DNA of 64,000 bases from contig NZ_LMPP01000001.1 in NCBI RefSeq assembly GCF_001423885.1, positions 62,001 to 126,000 of the forward strand. The letters run 5' to 3'. This document shows positions 1,739 through 42,622 of this stretch, piece after piece (within the stretch, counting starts at the first letter, position 1; every line of letters starts with the position of its first letter). Below the pieces are notes generated by a model. The model worked only from the letters and a program-made list of their open reading frames with translations. It did not search any database and was not told the DNA's origin. The stretch is from Rathayibacter sp. Leaf185 (GTDB lineage Bacteria > Actinomycetota > Actinomycetes > Actinomycetales > Microbacteriaceae). Made by a program: the position numbers and the translations under genes.

Positions 1739-3055
1739 ATGTCCGGCTCCCTCAACATCACCTCCGCCACCGTCGACCCGGCGCTCCTGGATCTGCCGTG
1801 GGCTCTGCGGCTGAACGACTGGCCCGACGAGTACATCGCCGCACTGCCCAAGGGCATCTCGCGGCACACCGTCCGCTTCGCGCACCTCTCGGGGCACGTC
1901 GTCGCCGTCAAGGAGACGACCGCCGAGATGGCGCGTCGCGAGTACGAGATGCTCAAGACCCTCCAGCGCCTCGACGTCCCGTGCGTCGTCCCCGGCGCGG
2001 TCATCACCAACCGGAGCGACGACGAGGGCGGAGAGCTGCCCGCCGTCCTCGTGACGCGGCACCTCAAGTTCTCGCTCCCCTACCGCGCGCTGTTCTCGCA
2101 GACGCTGCGCCCCGACACGGCGACCCGCCTCGTCGACGCGCTCGCACTGCTGCTGGTGCGGCTGCACGTCATCGGGTTCTTCTGGGGTGACGTCTCGCTC
2201 TCGAACACCCTGTTCCGGCGCGACGCCGGCGCCTTCGCGGCCTACCTGGTCGACGCCGAGACGGGTCAGCTCTACACGGGGGGCCTCTCGAACGGCCAAC
2301 GCGAGAACGACCTCGAGATCGCCCGCGTGAACATCGCCGGCGAGCTGCTCGATCTCGAGGCGGGAGGTCGCGTCGACGACGACCTCGACCCGATCACGGT
2401 GTCCGACGGCATCGTCGCGGCCTACCGCAGCCTCTGGAAGGAGCTGACCGGCGTGGAGTCGTTCGCGACCTCGGAGCGCTGGCGCATCAACGACCGCGTG
2501 AACCGCCTGAACGACCTCGGCTTCGACATCGAGGAGCTGGCGATCAAGACCGATGAGGCCGGTTCGACCGTGCGGATCCAGCCCAAGGTCGTCGACGCCG
2601 GTCACCACCAGCGCCGACTGCTGCGCCTGACCGGTCTGGACGCGCAGGAGAACCAGGCGCGCCGCCTCCTGAACGACCTCGACTCGTACACGGCGACCTA
2701 CGACAAGCAGGGCCTCGATGAGGAGATGGTGGCGCACGAGTGGCTCGCGCAGGTGTTCGAGCCCGTCATCCGCTCGATCCCCCGCGATCTGAAGGGGCGG
2801 CTCGAACCGGCGGAGATGTTCCACCAGCTGCTCGAGCACCGCTGGTTCATGTCGCAGCAGCAGGCCCGCGACGTGCCGCTGGCGGAGGCGGTCACCGCCT
2901 ACGTGAACGACATCCTCCGTCACCGCCGCGACGAGGCGACGATCATCGCGCCTCCGACCGAGGCTCTCACTCTCCCCAATCTCGTCATCGACGAGGCGGG
3001 CGACGCCGAGCTGACCGACGAGGACTCCGACGTCGACTGGACGAAGAACGTCTGA
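1739..3055 (+). CDS. DUF4032 protein with a kinase-like fold
   Basis: A 438-residue cytoplasmic protein of the DUF4032 family (lipopolysaccharide-kinase-like). The N-terminal half has kinase-like features: Lys58 in VVAVKET, a catalytic-loop-like GDVSLSN near residue 150 followed by a metal-binding-like LVDAET, and a long helical C-terminal half with the domain of unknown function. The substrate is unknown. The Asp in GDVSLSN and the Asn four residues later are in the positions expected for an active phosphotransferase, which is inference. It follows msiK after a strong hairpin and ends in an acidic tail. The start ATG at 1739 has no strong Shine-Dalgarno in view. Confidence 0.8.
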   Translation: MSGSLNITSATVDPALLDLPWALRLNDWPDEYIAALPKGISRHTVRFAHLSGHVVAVKETTAEMARREYEMLKTLQRLDVPCVVPGAVITNRSDDEGGELPAVLVTRHLKFSLPYRALFSQTLRPDTATRLVDALALLLVRLHVIGFFWGDVSLSNTLFRRDAGAFAAYLVDAETGQLYTGGLSNGQRENDLEIARVNIAGELLDLEAGGRVDDDLDPITVSDGIVAAYRSLWKELTGVESFATSERWRINDRVNRLNDLGFDIEELAIKTDEAGSTVRIQPKVVDAGHHQRRLLRLTGLDAQENQARRLLNDLDSYTATYDKQGLDEEMVAHEWLAQVFEPVIRSIPRDLKGRLEPAEMFHQLLEHRWFMSQQQARDVPLAEAVTAYVNDILRHRRDEATIIAPPTEALTLPNLVIDEAGDAELTDEDSDVDWTKNV

Positions 3056-3071
3056 CCCTCTGAACGCCGAA

Positions 3072-3104
3072 GGGCTCGTCCGGATCACTGATCCGGACGA
3101 GCCC
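3072..3104 (+). terminator. Hairpin terminator after the DUF4032 gene
   Basis: GGGCTCGTCCGGAT (3072-3085) pairs perfectly with ATCCGGACGAGCCC (3091-3104) around the loop CACTG. It begins 16 bases after the stop codon, between convergent genes. Confidence 0.8.
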
Positions 3105-3130
3105 GTCCTGCTGTCCCACCTCGCGCCCCG

Positions 3131-3232
3131 GCGAGGTACCCGGTGCGGTGAGCTGCAAGGCGGAGGAGGGAGCGATACCGGAGGTATCGCGACCGACGAC
3201 AACGCCGCAGATCGCCGTACCGGGCGCCTCGC
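3131..3232 (+). repeat. Structured dispersed element, copy 1 (possible RNA)
   Basis: Outer arms 3131-3151 and 3212-3232 are complementary at 17 of 21 positions, with three more G-U pairs if read as plus-strand RNA. Inside, CTGC-aa-GGCG (3153-3162) pairs with CGCCGCAG (3203-3210), and a central hairpin GCGATACC-GGA-GGTATCGC lies at 3172-3190. The 60-base core is nearly identical to that at 7971-8030, while the outer arms have unrelated sequence. The right arm ends on the first base of the rlmB stop codon. Confidence 0.8.
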
Positions 3233-4251
3233 TATTCGGAGGTGGAGCGGCGCTTCGAGATCTCGTAGAGCGCGACGGACGCCGCGATGCCCGCGTTGAG
3301 CGACTCCGCTGCCGAGCTGATCGGGATGGAGACGATCGCGTCGCACTGCTCGGCGACGAGGCGGGACAGCCCCTTTCCCTCGCTGCCGACGAGGACGAGC
3401 AGCGGCCGGTCGGCCAGCTCGAGGCCCGGCAGCATGACGTCGCCGTCACCGTCGAGGCCGATCACGAAGACGCCCTCGCGCTTGTAGTCCTTGATCATCT
3501 GGGTGAGGTTCGCGGCCATCGCCACGGGAACACGCGCCGCGGCTCCCGCCGACGTCTTCCACGCGGCCGAGTTGAGGCCGACCGAGCGACGCTGGGGCAC
3601 GATGACGCCCTGGCCGCCGAACGCCGCGACGGAGCGGATGATCGCACCGAGGTTGCGCGGGTCGGTGATACCGTCGAGCGCGACGAACAGGGGCACGAGG
3701 CCTCGCGAGACGCTCTTCTCGAGCAGATCGCTGGGGTGCGCGTACTCGTACGGCGGCACCTTGAGCACGAGACCCTGGTGCACCGAGTCGGGGCCGGCGA
3801 GCCGGTCGAGCTCGGGGCGCATGACCTCGAGGACGGGGAGGCCGCGCGCCGTCGCGAGCTTCATCGCCTCCTTGACCCGGTCGTCCATCTCGATGCGGGT
3901 GGCGAGGTAGAGCGTCGTCGCCGGGATCTTCGCCCGAAGCGCCTCGAGGACGGAGTTGCGGCCCGTGACCATCTCGGACTCGTCGCCGCTCTTGGGCTTG
4001 CGGGGCCCGGGCGAACGGCCCTGACCGCGCGCCGCGGCCGACAGCGCACTGCCCGGGCGCCCCTTGCCTCCGGCCGCGACGAAGCGCTCGCGCGCCGCCT
4101 TGGCCTTGCCCGCGGGGTGGTACGGACGGTCCTCGGCCTTGGGGGTCGGCTTCTTGCCCTCGAGCGCCTGGCGGCCCTGGCCACCGGAGCCGACGGCCTT
4201 GCCCCTGCTCTTCTTCCTGACCGCGCCGGGGCGGTTGTCCTTATTCGCCAT
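3232..4251 (-). CDS. rlmB: 23S rRNA (guanosine-2'-O)-methyltransferase RlmB
   Basis: A 339-residue SpoU/TrmH-family methyltransferase that 2'-O-methylates a guanosine of 23S rRNA (G2251 in E. coli). Residues 1-95 are a Lys/Arg/Gly-rich basic extension, usual in actinobacterial members. A substrate-binding domain follows ([13 protein letters not shown]), then the SPOUT knot with all three motifs: [25 protein letters not shown] and [17 protein letters not shown]. The ATG at 4251 (MANKDN) is preferred over an ATG six codons upstream because it gives the usual N-terminus. It overlaps the end of cysS by 11 bases, so the two are co-translated. The stop codon abuts the structured element. Confidence 0.92.
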
Positions 4252-5689
4252 CGAGACTCCAATGTGCACCCGTCTGGGTGTCTTCGATCGTGATTCCCGC
4301 CGCGGCGAGATCGGTTCGGATGCGGTCGGCGGCGGCCCAGTCGCGCTGCTCTCGCGCGGTCTGGCGGTCGGCGACCAGCCTGTCGACCAGGACGCTCAGC
4401 GCCCGGTAGGTCGGCTCGTCGTCGGCGCGCGCCCACTCTGGCGCCTCCGGATCGATGCCGAGGACGGACGCCATCGCGAGCACCTGGGTGCGCAGCGAGG
4501 ACACCGTCCCGAGGTCCTCGGCGTCGAGGGCGGCGTTGCCCGCCCTGACCGTCTCGTGCAGGACGCCGATGGCCTGCGGGACGGAGAGGTCGTCGTCCAT
4601 CGCCTCGGCGAACGCGTCGGGCACCACCGGGTCGCCCAGGGAGGCGAAGCGAGTCCCCTCGAGGCGTCGGCGCGAGCGGTCGAGGAAGCCCTCGATGCGC
4701 TCGAGCGCCGCCTCCGCCTCCTCGAGCGCGCCGTCGTGGAACTCGAGGGTCGACCGGTAGTGCGCGGAGCCGAGGTAGTAGCGCACGACGAGCGGGCGCG
4801 CCGAGTCGAGGAGCTCGGAGGCGAACACGGAGTTTCCGAGCGACTTGCTCATCTTCTGGCCCGTCACCGAGACGAGGCCGTTGTGCAGCCAGTAGCTGGC
4901 GAAGGCGTAGCCGGCCGCGCTCGACTGGGCCAGCTCGTTCTCGTGGTGCGGGAAGCGCAGGTCGAGCCCGCCTCCGTGGATGTCGAACTGCGTGCCGAGG
5001 TACTTGGTCGACATGGCGGAGCACTCGATGTGCCAGCCCGGACGCCCGGCGCCCCACGGGGAATCCCAGGAGGCCGACGCGGGCTCGTCGGGCTTGATGC
5101 CCTTCCACAGGGCGAAGTCGTGGGGGTCGCGCTTGCCGCGCGGATCGGCGTCGGTCGCCGCCTCCATGCTCTCGAGGCGCTGGTGGGTGAGCGAGCCGTA
5201 GTCGGGCCACGAGCGGGTGTCGAAGTAGACGTCGCCGGAGACGTCGGGCGCGGGGTAGGCGTGGCCCAGCTCGACCAGGCGCTGCACCAGGGCGATCATC
5301 TCGGCGATGCTCGCGGTCGCACGCGGCTCGTAGGTGGGGGGCAGGATTCCGAGAGCGTTGTACGCGGCCGTGAACTCGAGCTCGACGCGGTAGGCGAGCG
5401 CCCACCACTGCTCGGACGCGGCACCGACGGGCGCCGCGATGCGCGCTGCCTCCGCGATCGCCAGGATCTTGTCGTCGATGTCGGTGACGTTGCGCACGAG
5501 CGTGACCCGGAAGCCACGGTAGTGCAGCCAGCGGCGCAGCTGGTCGTAGACGAGCGCCGAGCGGAGATGCCCGATGTGCGGAGAGGACTGCACCGTGGGT
5601 CCGCAGACGTACATCCCGACCTCGTTCGCGCGGAGGGGGGTGAAATCGACGAGGGCCTGGGCCTTCGAGTCATGCAGTCGCAGAGTCAC
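4241..5689 (-). CDS. cysS: Cysteinyl-tRNA synthetase
   Basis: A 482-residue class I synthetase that charges tRNA-Cys in the cytoplasm. The HIGH motif is at residues 38-41 (PHIGH), the zinc ligand Cys29 lies in MYVCGPT, and the KMSKS loop reads [13 protein letters not shown] near residue 280. The C-terminal DALR/anticodon-binding region is complete, and the length is normal. It is second in the run ispDF-cysS-rlmB, a conserved actinobacterial order, with a 57-base gap from ispDF and an 11-base overlap into rlmB. Confidence 0.96.
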
Positions 5690-5746
5690 GGTGGGGAGTT
5701 TACCGGGCGGACGCCCTGCGGCCCGGCGGCGCTGCCCGCCTGGGGA

Positions 5747-6955
5747 TCAGACCCGCGGCGCGGGGCTGGGGAGGACGAGCGCCGTCGCCACAGCGGTCAC
5801 TCCCTCCCCGCGACCGGTGAAGCCGAGAGCATCGGACGTCGTGGCGGCCACGCTGACCGGAGCGGCGAGCAGCGCGGAGAGGAGCGCCTGCGCCTCCTCG
5901 CGTCGCGGAGAGAACTTCGGCCTGTTGCCGACCAGCTGGACCGACACGTTGCCGATCGTGAACCCGGCCGCCTCGACCAGCTCGCGGGTCGCACGGAGGA
6001 ACACATCGCCGTGGGCGTCGCGGAACCGCGGATCATCGGTGCCGAACCGGGAGCCGATGTCGCCGAGCCCGGCCGCCGACAGGAGGGCGTCGCAGATCGC
6101 GTGGGCGACGGGGTCGCCGTCGCTGTGGCCCGAGAGCCCGCGCTCCCCCGGCCAGTGCAGACCGGCGAGCCGGAGCGGCGACGCGTCGTCGAAGGCGTGC
6201 ACGTCGATCCCGACGCCCACCCGCGGGACGGTGCTCGAGGCGGAGGGCGCGAGCAGCTGCTCCGCGCGCGCCAGATCCCACGGGGTCGTGATCTTGAAGG
6301 CCAGGGCGTCGCCGGCGACGACGACGGACGGGTGGCCGTGGGCGGCGAGCAGGGCCGCGTCGTCGGTGAACTCGCGCTCGGCGGCGGCGTACGCCTGGTC
6401 GAGCAGGACACGCGGGAAGCCCTGCGGAGTCTGCACGGCGGCGAGCTCGGAGCGGTCGACGGTGTCGAGGATCGTCCCTGCCGCGTCCACGCGCTTGATG
6501 GTGTCGGTCACGGGGAGACCAGGGACGACTCCGCCGCCCGACTCGTGGACCGCGGTGATCACCCGCTCGAACTGGCCGACGGGCGTCAGCGCCCGCGCCG
6601 CATCGTGCACGAGGACCGTCCGGACGGAGGGGACGAGGAGTGCGAGGCCCCGGGCGACCGAGTCCTGGCGGGTCGCGCCTCCTGCCGTGACGGTGACGGA
6701 GTCGACGGCGCGTCCCGCCGCGGCGGCGCAGAGCCGCGTGGTCTCGTCGACCAGCTCGAGCGGCGCGACGACGACGATCTGCACGGGCTCCGACAGGGTG
6801 AGGACGGTGCGGAGGCTGCGCTCCAGAATGGTCACGCCGGCGCACTCGACGTAGGCCTTCGGACGCTCCCGTCCGAGGCGGGTCCCGCTCCCCGCGGCGA
6901 CGATGACGACGGCGGCGCTCGGCGCCAGGAGCGCCGTGGCGGGGTCGACCTGCAT
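5747..6955 (-). CDS. ispDF: Bifunctional MEP-pathway enzyme IspD/IspF
   Basis: A 402-residue fusion of two non-consecutive steps of the non-mevalonate isoprenoid pathway. Residues about 14-235 are IspD (CDP-ME synthase), with the nucleotide loop AAGSGTRLGRERPKAY (20-35). Residues about 240-400 are IspF (MEcPP synthase), with metal-binding GIDVHAF and SGHSDGDPVAHAI and the GFTGRGEGVTA motif near the end. The ATG at 6955 (MQVDPATALL) is chosen; the open frame upstream is proline/arginine-rich and looks untranslated. Many actinobacteria keep ispD and ispF as separate neighbours, and fusion is common in Microbacteriaceae. No carD gene lies upstream, unlike mycobacteria. Confidence 0.92.
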   Translation of the reverse strand: MQVDPATALLAPSAAVVIVAAGSGTRLGRERPKAYVECAGVTILERSLRTVLTLSEPVQIVVVAPLELVDETTRLCAAAAGRAVDSVTVTAGGATRQDSVARGLALLVPSVRTVLVHDAARALTPVGQFERVITAVHESGGGVVPGLPVTDTIKRVDAAGTILDTVDRSELAAVQTPQGFPRVLLDQAYAAAEREFTDDAALLAAHGHPSVVVAGDALAFKITTPWDLARAEQLLAPSASSTVPRVGVGIDVHAFDDASPLRLAGLHWPGERGLSGHSDGDPVAHAICDALLSAAGLGDIGSRFGTDDPRFRDAHGDVFLRATRELVEAAGFTIGNVSVQLVGNRPKFSPRREEAQALLSALLAAPVSVAATTSDALGFTGRGEGVTAVATALVLPSPAPRV

Positions 6956-7119
6956 GCGTGACGTCCTCTCAGCGCTGGGCAGAGTAGCACGGGGCTCCGC
7001 ACCGACGGCAGCCTCGGCGGGCATGGGCGGCGGCCTGGCTACGCTAATCTGGTGTCCGGCTCCCGCTCCGTGGATCAGCCCTGTCCGGGGCGAGCAGGGC
7101 CGACGATCTGGAGGTATCC

Positions 7120-7689
7120 GTGAAGGCCCGTATCGCTGCATCCGTCGTTCTCGCGGTCGGCGTCGCCCTCGCAACCGCCGGCTGCAACCTCGTCGCCCCG
7201 CAGGCGACGCGCAATCTGTACGACCCGAGTGACGGAGTCGGTGCCACCATCGGCGATCTGGCCCTCCGCAACGCGTTCATCGTCTCCGACGACGGCGAGC
7301 TGGGCACCCTGGTCGTGACCGTCGTCAACTCCGGCGACGAGACGCAGACCCTCGAGGTGCAGTACGAGTCGACCACCGGTCGCACCGACGCCGAGGTGTC
7401 CGCCGTTCCCGGCAACACCGAGGTCGGCCCGCAGAAGGACGCCTCGGTGACCATGTCGGATCTCGACACGATCCCGGGCAGCCTCCTCCCCGTCTACTTC
7501 CAGTACGGGTCCGAGGAGGGCAAGGAGCTGCTGGTGCCGGTCCTGACCTCCGCCCTCGAGTCCTACGCGACCCTCACCCCGGCCCCTTCGGCCACCCCGA
7601 CGCAGACCGCCACGCCCGACCCGGCGAACACCGCCCTGCCGACCCCCACGACCGAGCCCGGCAACTCGATCGAGCCCTCGAACGAGTAG
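7120..7689 (+). CDS. Lipoprotein of unknown function
   Basis: A 189-residue secreted lipoprotein. It has a short basic start, a hydrophobic signal of about 15 residues and a lipobox TAGC with Cys22 as the lipidated residue. The mature part has an immunoglobulin-like beta pattern (VSDDGELGTLVVTVVNSGDETQTLEVQY is typical of extracellular beta-sandwich proteins), then a Thr/Pro-rich tail. The GTG start at 7120 follows a perfect GGAGGT (7110-7115). It diverges from ispDF and ends in a hairpin terminator. No specific family is recognised. It could be an envelope-stress or copper-chaperone-like protein, but no metal motif is visible. Confidence 0.75.
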   Translation: MKARIAASVVLAVGVALATAGCNLVAPQATRNLYDPSDGVGATIGDLALRNAFIVSDDGELGTLVVTVVNSGDETQTLEVQYESTTGRTDAEVSAVPGNTEVGPQKDASVTMSDLDTIPGSLLPVYFQYGSEEGKELLVPVLTSALESYATLTPAPSATPTQTATPDPANTALPTPTTEPGNSIEPSNE

Positions 7690-7699
7690 TCCGCAGCCT

Positions 7700-7743
7700 C
7701 ACGCCGAAGGGCCGTCCGCTTCAGCGGGCGGCGCTTCGGCGTG
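7700..7743 (+). terminator. Hairpin terminator after the lipoprotein gene
   Basis: CACGCCGAAG (7700-7709) pairs with CTTCGGCGTG (7734-7743), with a further G/C-rich inner stem (CCGTCCGC with GCGGGCGG). It starts 11 bases after the stop codon. Confidence 0.75.
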
Positions 7744-7772
7744 CGGCAGGCGGCTCACCCTCGAAGGGACGT

Positions 7773-7814
7773 GGCTCTCGACACGCCCCTGCAGGCCTAC
7801 TCGACCAGCAGGCA
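7773..7814 (+). repeat. Dispersed TCTCGA...TACTCGACCAGCA element, copy 1
   Basis: Reads TCTCGACACGCC, a short variable centre, then CTACTCGACCAGCAGGCA. Related copies lie at 28662-28704 and, inverted, at 35801-35840. It resembles the short intergenic repeats common in Microbacteriaceae. All three copies are between genes. Confidence 0.6.
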
Positions 7815-7833
7815 GGCGCCGCGCCCTTGACCA

Positions 7834-7890
7834 CTGCTCGTCGCGCAGCGACGGCCCCGTGAGCCCTGCTCGTCGCGCAGCGACGGCCCC
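7834..7890 (+). repeat. Two exact 25-bp direct repeats
   Basis: The 25-base unit beginning CTGCTCGTCGCGCAGCGACG occurs at 7834-7858 and 7866-7890, identical, with a period of 32 bases. Each unit contains the small palindrome CGTCGCGCAGCGACG, so each can form a hairpin. The 7744-7947 stretch has no credible gene. Confidence 0.75.
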
Positions 7891-7947
7891 ACCTCAAGCC
7901 GCACGTCTCTACGACGGCGTGCTCACGCGAATCCTTCTGCAGGAGGG

Positions 7948-8066
7948 GATCGCGGGTCCTGGTGGGGGCAGGTGCAAGGCGGAGGAGGGCGCGATACTGG
8001 AAGTATCGCAATCGACGACAACGCCGCAGATGCCCCCACCAGGGCCCGCGATCAGGGCCCGCGATC
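7948..8066 (+). repeat. Structured dispersed element, copy 2 (possible RNA)
   Basis: Outer arms 7948-7970 and 8031-8053 are complementary at 22 of 23 positions, and the exception is a G-U pair as plus-strand RNA. The core 7971-8030 matches copy 1 (3152-3211) almost base for base. Its central hairpin reads GCGATACT-GGA-AGTATCGC (7991-8009), so the loop-closing pair is U-A instead of C-G. The last 13 bases of the right arm are duplicated in tandem (8041-8053, 8054-8066), running into the regX3 stop codon (8065-8067). Confidence 0.8.
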
Positions 8067-8742
8067 ACGCGTCGAAGCGGTAGCCGAGTCCGCGGACAGT
8101 AACCAGGAGCGTCGGCTCCTTCGGGGTCTTCTCGATCTTGGAGCGGATGCGCTTCACGTGGACGTCGAGTGTCTTGGTGTCGCCGAAGTAGTCGCTGCCC
8201 CAGACGCGGTCGATGAGCTGGCCGCGGGTGAGGACGCGGCCGGCGTTCCGCAGGAGCATCTCGAGGAGCTCGAACTCCTTGAGGGGCATGGGCGTCTCGA
8301 CTCCGTCGACCTCGACCGTGTGGCGTTCGATGTCCATCTTGACGGGGCCGGCGACGACGATGCGCTCCTCCCCCGGGTCCTCGGTGCGGCGGCGGAGGAC
8401 GGCGCGGATGCGGGCGAGCAGCTCGCGGGTCGAGTACGGCTTGGTGACGTAGTCGTCGGCTCCGAGCTCGAGCCCGACGACGATGTCGACCTCGGAGTCC
8501 TTCGCGGTCACCATGATGATCGGGATGGAGGACCGGGTGCGGATCTCGCGGCACACCTCCGTTCCCGGCATGCCGGGCAGCATCAGGTCGAGCAGGATCA
8601 GGTCGTAGTCGCCCTCGTCGAAGGCGGCGACGGCGCGAGTGCCGTCCTCGGCGACCGTCACGTCGTAGCCCTCTCTTTCGAGCAGGTAGCTGAGGGGCTC
8701 GCTGAGTGCGCTCTCGTCCTCGACGAGCAGGATGCTGGTCAC
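8065..8742 (-). CDS. regX3: Phosphate-type response regulator RegX3
   Basis: A 225-residue OmpR-family regulator. The receiver domain (1-120) has acidic residues Glu8/Asp9, phospho-acceptor Asp52 (LILLDLMLPG) and the conserved Lys in VTKPYS. The C-terminal winged helix (about 130-224) includes the recognition region TRGQLIDRVWG...TLDVHVKRIRSKI. It is the partner of senX3, whose stop overlaps its start by 4 bases. The SenX3-RegX3 family controls phosphate-starvation genes, and PHO boxes precede ppk and pstS in this window. phoU is divergently placed next to senX3, which supports the phosphate assignment over other OmpR regulators. Confidence 0.9.
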   Translation of the reverse strand: MTSILLVEDESALSEPLSYLLEREGYDVTVAEDGTRAVAAFDEGDYDLILLDLMLPGMPGTEVCREIRTRSSIPIIMVTAKDSEVDIVVGLELGADDYVTKPYSTRELLARIRAVLRRRTEDPGEERIVVAGPVKMDIERHTVEVDGVETPMPLKEFELLEMLLRNAGRVLTRGQLIDRVWGSDYFGDTKTLDVHVKRIRSKIEKTPKEPTLLVTVRGLGYRFDA

Positions 8743-28251: not shown

Positions 28252-28324
28252 GGGCCTCTAGCTCAGTTGGCAGAGCAGCGGACTTTTAATCCGCGGGTCG
28301 TCGGTTCGAGCCCGACGGGGCCCA
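28252..28324 (+). tRNA. tRNA-Lys (anticodon TTT)
   Basis: A full cloverleaf: acceptor GGGCCTC pairs with GGGGCCC; D-arm GCTCAGTTGGCAGAGC; anticodon arm CGGACTTTTAATCCG with anticodon TTT; T-arm GTCGGTTCGAGCCCGAC; discriminator A at 28324. The CCA end is not encoded. It reads AAA/AAG codons. It flanks a region of small, poorly conserved genes, but no integrase or duplicated tRNA end is seen. Confidence 0.95.
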
Positions 28325-42339: not shown

Positions 42340-42432
42340 GGACGCTCCTTGACGGCGAAACGGATGGCACCCGTGCCGTCGCGGCGAGGCGACGAGGCTC
42401 GTTCGGGCGACCGGGACTACGGTATCCGTTCC

Positions 42433-42530
42433 GGCCCAGGCGTGCGGCAGGAAAAGTGTCCGGCGAGAATGCACCGGAGGAGGTGTCGCTCCCTGATGGT
42501 CACCCATCCGAACGCCAGTCGCGACGCGGC
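42433..42530 (-). promoter_or_regulatory. ZTP (pfl) riboswitch upstream of glyA
   Basis: Read on the minus strand, the conserved blocks of the pfl/ZTP aptamer occur in order: GUCGCGACUGGCG, then GGGUGACCAUC and AGGGAGCGAC (whose GCGAC pairs back to GUCGC), a variable stem, and finally CCGCACGCCUGGGCC, matching the consensus 3' block around GCCUGGGC. A likely -10 TACACT (42537-42532) lies just upstream, placing the start of the transcript near the aptamer. ZTP riboswitches sense ZMP/ZTP and turn on one-carbon genes such as glyA and folD when 10-formyl-THF is short. Called from motif memory, not a covariance model. Confidence 0.85.
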
Positions 42531-42622
42531 AAGTGTAGCAAGAGCCGGAGGCTGAAGCTCCCTCACGTCTGTGCGAGGATCTCTCGGAGTCGTCCCTGGT
42601 GCCGGACGCGGGAGGGACCATC

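Follow-up and report, generated by a model that had tools for sequence, protein, structure and literature searches.

What is a long, structured palindrome doing directly behind the stop codons of two genes in Rathayibacter sp. Leaf185? In a stretch of 64,000 nucleotides of this genome, analysed as a whole and hereafter called the window, a sequence-only reading had described an element with a conserved core and self-complementary arms, present in two copies behind rlmB and regX3. Two copies with a shared core do lie at about the positions given there. We identify the element, with good confidence, as a structured repeat that crosses phyla. As to its role, the reading set out below has a little less than an even chance of being right and was drawn from sequence: a structured module spread by miniature inverted-repeat transposable elements (MITEs), kept here without terminal inverted repeats (TIRs), would form, by means of its plus strand, a one-way barrier to transcription that enters a gene from its 3' end.

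Structure and covariation of the element

The module is about 108 nt long. From the outside inwards it comprises the arm, two invariant G-C pairs, an AA bulge, a GGCG/CGCC stem, an asymmetric internal loop (GAG opposite CGACAA) and an inner hairpin, and in most copies of the genus two further G-C pairs lie between the internal loop and the inner hairpin. The inner hairpin has 8 bp, and its loop is GGC in 35 and GGA in 18 of the 66 genus copies. The arm measures 25-29 bp in 51 of these 66 copies, with a mode of 28; elsewhere the mode is 24 (28 of 110 copies). The core is fixed, the inner hairpin covaries freely, and the arms keep their pairing while their letters are free.

An exact two-part pattern finds 12 copies in the genome, and its reversed form finds none. 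Over these 12 copies, pairing is kept in 94.7% of 492 cells and double changes occur at 28 of 41 pairs, which bears out the earlier claim that arms of unrelated letters remain self-complementary. Copies with non-complementary arms were looked for, and the arms stay paired, so that the claim is not refuted. The covariation score is 0.583, compared to 0.159 for shuffled sequences and at most 0.135 for slid partners; in 54 sequences chosen for diversity it is 0.519, compared to 0.159 and at most 0.175. Covariation thus lies above both the shuffled and the slid controls, as in structured RNAs. The constancy of the core letters in the 54-sequence set carries no weight because the selection pattern fixed them; the letters of the internal loop are conserved across phyla, the outer core letters being set by the search pattern. 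A covariance model was built from the 12 copies, and the genome search proposed earlier was run with it at E up to 1. It returned 24 matches, of which 16 are on the sense strand and 8 are weaker matches on the opposite strand at the same places, and the former "two-copy" label is an understatement.

Both window copies fold strongly as plus-strand RNA, with energies of -75.5 kcal/mol (copy 1) and -73.9 kcal/mol (copy 2), z-scores of -8.5 and -11.1, and equally good folds in 0 of 200 shuffles. The minus-strand folds are weaker (-60.1 and -65.2 kcal/mol, z-scores of -5.2 and -8.2, 0 of 200 shuffles). The imperfect arm pairs on the plus strand are U-G, A-C, G-U and U-G in copy 1 and U-G in copy 2; four of the five near misses are G-U, as had been noticed. 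Close to the core, the arms have a G-A mismatch in both copies and a G-G mismatch in copy 2. The reported replacement of C-G by U-A at the loop-closing pair is confirmed, and two further copies in the genome, L004 and L008, differ at several pairs of the inner hairpin. The extent of copy 2 had to be corrected: its arm stops at 8053 and not at 8066, and the bases in between repeat the arm end. This repeat is missing at the same site in genome G005, where the arm directly adjoins the stop codon. A kink-turn in the internal loop was rejected by eye, with the bulge on the wrong side of the G-A pairs, and so was a G-quadruplex in GGCGGAGGAGG, whose fourth GG is lost in the diverse set.

Probable selection on the plus-strand fold

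Wobble pairs tell the two strands apart. At arm positions 3-22 of the genus copies, read on the plus strand, G-U pairs number 152 and A-C pairs 9. Over positions 3-26 of the 64 distinct genus copies the counts are 157 and 18, and in 116 copies outside the genus they are 408 and 101. Copies between convergent genes (33) give 87 G-U against 5 A-C. The outermost positions 23-28 behave in the opposite way, with 7 G-U and 24 A-C. Copies too close to a contig end were skipped in the counts over 64 and 116 copies, as in those of folds, arm lengths, promoters and terminal repeats. The inner excess of G-U and its outer reversal thus indicate that folding of the plus strand is maintained in the inner part of the arm but not at its outermost pairs. 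It is very likely that this fold is under selection. The wobble bias fits RNA and single-stranded DNA alike, as a role in single-stranded DNA would give the same bias. The former proposal of a plus-strand RNA is thus upheld as to which strand is kept folded; this strand may act as RNA or as DNA.

Copies in the genus and fixed sites

Each of the 15 sampled Rathayibacter genomes has 3-17 copies. At the rlmB site the element is present in 8 of the 15 genomes and absent in 7; where it is present the arms differ yet still pair, and 4 of the 8 species carrying it have tandem copies. At the regX3 site it is present in 13 of the 15. Four further sites of the window's genome were compared with nine relatives. 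At 2 of these 4 sites, the outer left arm is partly the inverse of the right flank shared by element-free relatives, the match being exact in three genomes at one site and rough in one genome at the other. In genomes G004 and G013 the element has the opposite orientation at one site and meets the other gene's stop codon. A direct duplication of the target was not observed at the rlmB site or the four further sites, the flanks of which have diverged.

The same intergenic places hold unrelated long palindromes in other species, e.g. CGCGAGATGCCACTTGTGC...GCACAAGTGGCATCTCGCG, GTCCAGGAGTTGTCGCAC... and GGGGTTGTCAC.... They include L365, L367, L368 and L372 at the L234 site (in G010, G006, G011 and G008), L373 at the L241 site (in G007), and L268 and L269 at the rlmB site (in G009 and G012). 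Gene ends in the genus seem to collect several palindromic repeat families.

Placement relative to genes and replication

Genes were called with a codon-usage gene finder around 66 copies at 53 of 60 loci in six genomes; loci L196, L214, L216, L224, L228, L242 and L245 are left out, their copies being unfit for the regular expression. With E as the element, the gene context is '>E<' in 33 copies, '<E<' in 30, '>E>' in 2 and '<E>' in 1. Convergent gene ends, the setting first described, are true of both window copies but of only these 33 of 66 across the genus. The constant feature is the right-hand gene, which is antisense to the element in 63 of the 66 copies. The stop codon of that gene falls at the arm's end, 13-46 nt from the core, in 51 of the 63; the remaining 12 comprise 11 outer members of tandem arrays and one copy with the stop at 68 nt. 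The distance to the end of the left gene is 36 to 1,046 nt in the '>E<' copies. Among gaps of at least 100 bp at the genus loci, those with the element are convergent and tandem at 28:26, and those without it at 2:38. Stops adjoining the element comprise 31 TGA, 17 TAG and 2 TAA; for other stops the counts are 137, 36 and 8. In the deposited annotation of Streptomyces plasmids, the right gene is antisense in 9 of 9 loci (about 7 distinct neighbourhoods). In this check 15 records matched and 12 were examined, of which 9 had features; the unannotated H4-H6 were left out.

With dnaA taken as the origin, the direction of the replication fork was counted at 35 of 38 loci. The element is oriented opposite to fork movement in 33 of the 35, and the right-hand genes run with the fork in 29 of the 35 (other genes, 63:37). 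A function tied to the replication strand was set aside, as the fork bias is inseparable from the orientation of the abutting gene (p 0.07).

Distribution and association with miniature transposons

Beyond the genus, the core pattern occurs in at least 117 stretches of named genomes, mostly Streptomyces. The matches listed also include other Actinomycetota, Betaproteobacteria (Thiomonas, Sideroxydans), Gammaproteobacteria, Lachnospiraceae and other Clostridia. The distribution is patchy: the exact pattern is found in 10 of 396 Actinomycetota genomes, 3 of which resemble chance by their inner sequence, and the reversed control in 1 of 396. In the family, model R2 with strict filters finds the element in 18 of 249 genomes and 9 of 85 genera. 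Copy numbers range from 1 to 30 per genome in 17 chosen genomes, the window's own included. Among the folds listed, the Thiomonas and Sideroxydans copies look by eye as TIR-less as those of the window. As for carriage by phages, 50,697 phage records gave no match; two stretches of a viral collection, the viral contigs L254 and L255, contain the core pattern. In Streptomyces L049, L057, L058, L127 and L108, one arm is missing and is replaced by a repeat of the type gggggtcccccc, and these one-armed copies are chimeras of two repeat families.

In several lineages, relatives of the element are carried by MITEs. In this frame 40 loci were examined, 9 of them without the core by regular expression. 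S. shenzhenensis has 30 copies, 19 of them identical, of an element that measures 166 bp with both CTAGs and has the core at its centre, and Gordonia has 5 near-identical copies. Terminal repeats, a defined target and near-identical dispersed copies, the marks of a MITE, are found in these two and in others. In another Streptomyces, the same terminal repeats stand 915 nt apart and enclose PF13340 and PF01609 stretches in two frames. This insertion sequence (IS) shares the repeat and carries a transposase of the IS4/5 type; it is the autonomous partner expected of a MITE. The same plan with other terminal repeats occurs in Gordonia, Anaerobium, Lachnospiraceae, Jiangella, Pseudonocardia and a Clostridiales genome. 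The core in mid-element, the TIRs and the CTAG ends in several lineages are those of IS5-family MITEs. A MITE family normally has common ends and one parent IS, whereas here the ends differ and the centre is common.

Under a strict rule that scans only for [CT]TA[AG]-ended repeats, and could miss other ends, TIRs were found outside the genus in 19 of 110 and 10 of 29 copies, and in 0 of 550 and 0 of 145 shuffled sequences. The copies with such repeats have 13 and 8 distinct 12-mer starts, overlapping between the two sets, and most copies outside the genus lack TIRs under this rule too. In the genus, with the window included, 0 of 71 copies have TIRs by the same rule. The genus copies are short, non-coding and multi-copy (about 108 nt, 16 in the genome). 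The window copies are not classed as MITEs because terminal repeats were tested for and not found; they have their centre in common with the MITE-borne elements. The earlier view of the element as more than a plain terminator and linked to mobile repeats is borne out by copy number, covariation and these MITE-borne relatives.

Stop codons and MITE ends are connected. The frequent core-to-stop spacing of 52 nt in Streptomyces, seen in 17 copies of a mixed sample of 98, arises because the CTAG-ended inverted repeats supply the stop via their TAG. In S. shenzhenensis, the stop coincides with the right CTAG only in 12 copies, with the left only in 8, with both in 1 and with neither in 9. Of 98 mixed actinobacterial copies, 37 have a stop within 90 nt on the right side alone, 12 on the left alone, 10 on both sides and 39 on neither. 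Core-less derivatives of the Streptomyces MITE (L464, L465, L466) are single and look like deletions inside the palindrome. Insertion of the core into the loop of a pre-existing palindrome was rejected, as the core-less MITEs resemble internal deletions and not precise empty forms.

Comparison with known families

The earlier statement that no named family fits agrees with Rfam release 15, in which no family reaches its gathering score at the element. At low thresholds (E=10 for the stretch of the window, E=1 for 8 diverse loci) the matches are chance-like and mostly to microRNAs. The skipping-rope RNA (RF02924), a motif of similar appearance, was rejected: it is absent from these matches, and it contains a pseudoknot (PMC7779021). 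Titles and abstract openings of the openly accessible literature gave no published description that was recognised as the element. Elsewhere in the window, Rfam families above the gathering score are an msiK RNA at 496-553, a tRNA at 28252-28324 and a ZMP/ZTP riboswitch at 42427-42532 on the minus strand.

Integron attC sites likewise lie behind a stop codon, are recognised as a folded strand, and have extrahelical bases and arms that vary; their conserved boxes are at the ends. They and the ends of IS200/IS605 elements were discarded on general features, with no search aimed at attC, as the conserved irregularities lie here in the middle of the stem. Intrinsic terminators are similar to the element in having a GC-rich stem at gene ends, but differ by the absence here of a called U-tract, by the conserved internal loop and by the fixed orientation antisense to the gene. 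Repetitive extragenic palindromes (REPs and their clustered form, BIMEs) with their RAYT proteins resemble it in their dispersed intergenic palindromes, strand asymmetry and occasional clusters. REPs are 20-40 bp long, and one of their ends carries a GTAG or CGTC tag (PMC3733652). The present unit, in contrast, is about 108 nt long with varying arms, and no common tetranucleotide stands at the feet of the copies listed. The window copies are therefore not filed as REPs or under any Rfam family.

Proposed role and rival explanations

In the preferred reading, MITEs would insert the module at stop-codon sites in either orientation. Insertion would be near-random and followed by selection, either against the plus strand in the gene's own message or for the antisense placement. 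Plus-strand RNA might arise when transcription runs past the end of the left gene, or by divergent antisense transcription, and its fold would halt or remove the transcript before it enters the abutting gene. Such a barrier would account for the strand, the orientation, the abutment on the stop, the excess of convergent pairs and the gain of tandem copies, and it is the best single reading of these features. The barrier mechanism on its own is tentative, slightly more so than the reading as a whole. A wider version is doubtful: unrelated miniature transposons of the IS5 type would have carried the module from phylum to phylum, and Rathayibacter at least would have domesticated it as a strand-specific RNA boundary element that marks the rear of a gene, so that the transposon would pay for its insertion at the stop codon by protecting the gene from antisense transcription.

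Several observations weigh against the barrier. The wobble bias is equal in the 30 '<E<' copies, at 65 G-U to 4 A-C, where no left gene reads in; read-through messages are therefore unlikely as the sole source of the bias. No promoter belonging to the element is visible, TANNNT occurring once in 66 upstream stretches of 80 nt, and a terminator scan of 2900-8300 found no U-tract terminator at or before either copy (its sole site is at 4218). The minus strand folds strongly as well. In the recent S. shenzhenensis copies, the right neighbour is already antisense in 22, sense in 6, and in 2 the copy lies inside a called gene, so that a preference at insertion is possible. Many of the genus copies are orthologous and are not 66 independent events, and p-values are overstated because of this and because the gene calls come from our own finder. 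The barrier would also require antisense transcription, which is presumed here, and it leaves the conservation of the internal loop unexplained unless a protein reads the loop.

The most serious competitor, though itself unlikely and a shade below the boundary-element version, holds that the plus-strand fold works as DNA: a hairpin or cruciform would join the ends of short MITEs or bind a host protein and so promote copying, and TIR-less copies would be remnants or be moved by another enzyme. The central position of the core in MITEs with unrelated ends speaks for it, as do the 30 near-identical core-bearing copies of S. shenzhenensis set beside three core-less ones (two Streptomyces genomes) that are single, and a wobble bias that is independent of the transcription context. 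The opposition to the fork in 33 of 35 loci would suit it too, but is the bias that cannot be separated from gene orientation. A pure aid to transposition would have no need of a strong gene orientation, and TIR-less copies nevertheless keep core and arms over speciation, as at the regX3 site. A plain bidirectional or weak intrinsic terminator, repeated by happenstance, is improbable: a long GC-rich hairpin at gene ends, often between convergent genes, is what it would predict, but the scan called no U-tract site, the internal loop is kept across phyla, the orientation is fixed, and the arm extends far beyond the needs of termination.

Slightly less probable still is an element without function, in which template switching during replication recopies one arm onto the other and the result is inherited as junk. 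Template switching is able to generate hairpins and to mend them (PMC8794818), and in E. coli it shows a strand bias (PMC7202029); the likeness of the outer left arm to the inverse flank of element-free relatives at 2 of 4 sites is in its favour. It would, however, give perfect pairs and not the inner-arm excess of 152 G-U to 9 A-C, and would not conserve loops, orientation or arm length. Template switching could well be at work in the outermost pairs, at which the wobble bias reverses. A riboswitch, or a small RNA acting in trans, that is transcribed on its own is very improbable. The conserved asymmetric internal loop between covarying helices would suit one, but a -10-like motif stands in only 1 of the 66 upstream stretches, there are up to 30 copies per genome, placed behind stop codons, and Rfam has no credible match.

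Palindromic repeats in bacteria usually receive one explanation per family, each with its own transposase. Here the fold and its loops persist in Actinomycetota, Proteobacteria and Clostridia with differing mobile ends around them, a pattern that points to a common cellular partner or process. If the barrier is true, it would make it possible to test by what means bacteria protect gene ends from antisense transcription, and the element would exemplify a transposon whose centre renders it harmless or useful.

Features of the window and neighbouring observations

Table 1. Positions of the two copies, their parts and their neighbours in the window
Feature	Position	Strand	Remarks
Copy 1, left arm	3130..3156	+	27 nt; 26 bp and an end wobble
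Copy 1, conserved core	3157..3206	+	AA bulge, GGCG/CGCC stem, internal loop, inner hairpin
Copy 1, inner hairpin	3172..3190	+	8 bp; GGA loop 3180-3182
Copy 1, right arm	3207..3233	+	End overlaps the stop codon of the leftward gene, CTA 3232-3234
Copy 2, left arm	7948..7975	+	28 nt
Copy 2, conserved core	7976..8025	+	
Copy 2, inner hairpin	7991..8009	+	Loop-closing pair U-A (C-G in copy 1)
Copy 2, right arm	8026..8053	+	28 nt
13-base repeat of the right-arm end of copy 2	8054..8066	+	
Hairpin behind the rightward gene, before copy 1	3070..3106		Ordinary, long; stem visible in chance Rfam alignments
Gene abutted by copy 1	3232..4269	-	rlmB, name from the initial sequence reading
Gene abutted by copy 2	8065..8742	-	regX3, name from the initial sequence reading; stop codon 8065-8067

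The sequence-only reading had placed an ordinary terminator before each copy. A clear hairpin precedes copy 1, but none of that kind precedes copy 2. The stretch before copy 2 contains the hairpin CGTCGCGCAGCGACGG twice. A short hairpin, GCTCGTCGCGCAGCGACGGCCC, occurs twice within 7830-7895, and relatives have it at the corresponding place too (L287 and other regX3-site loci).

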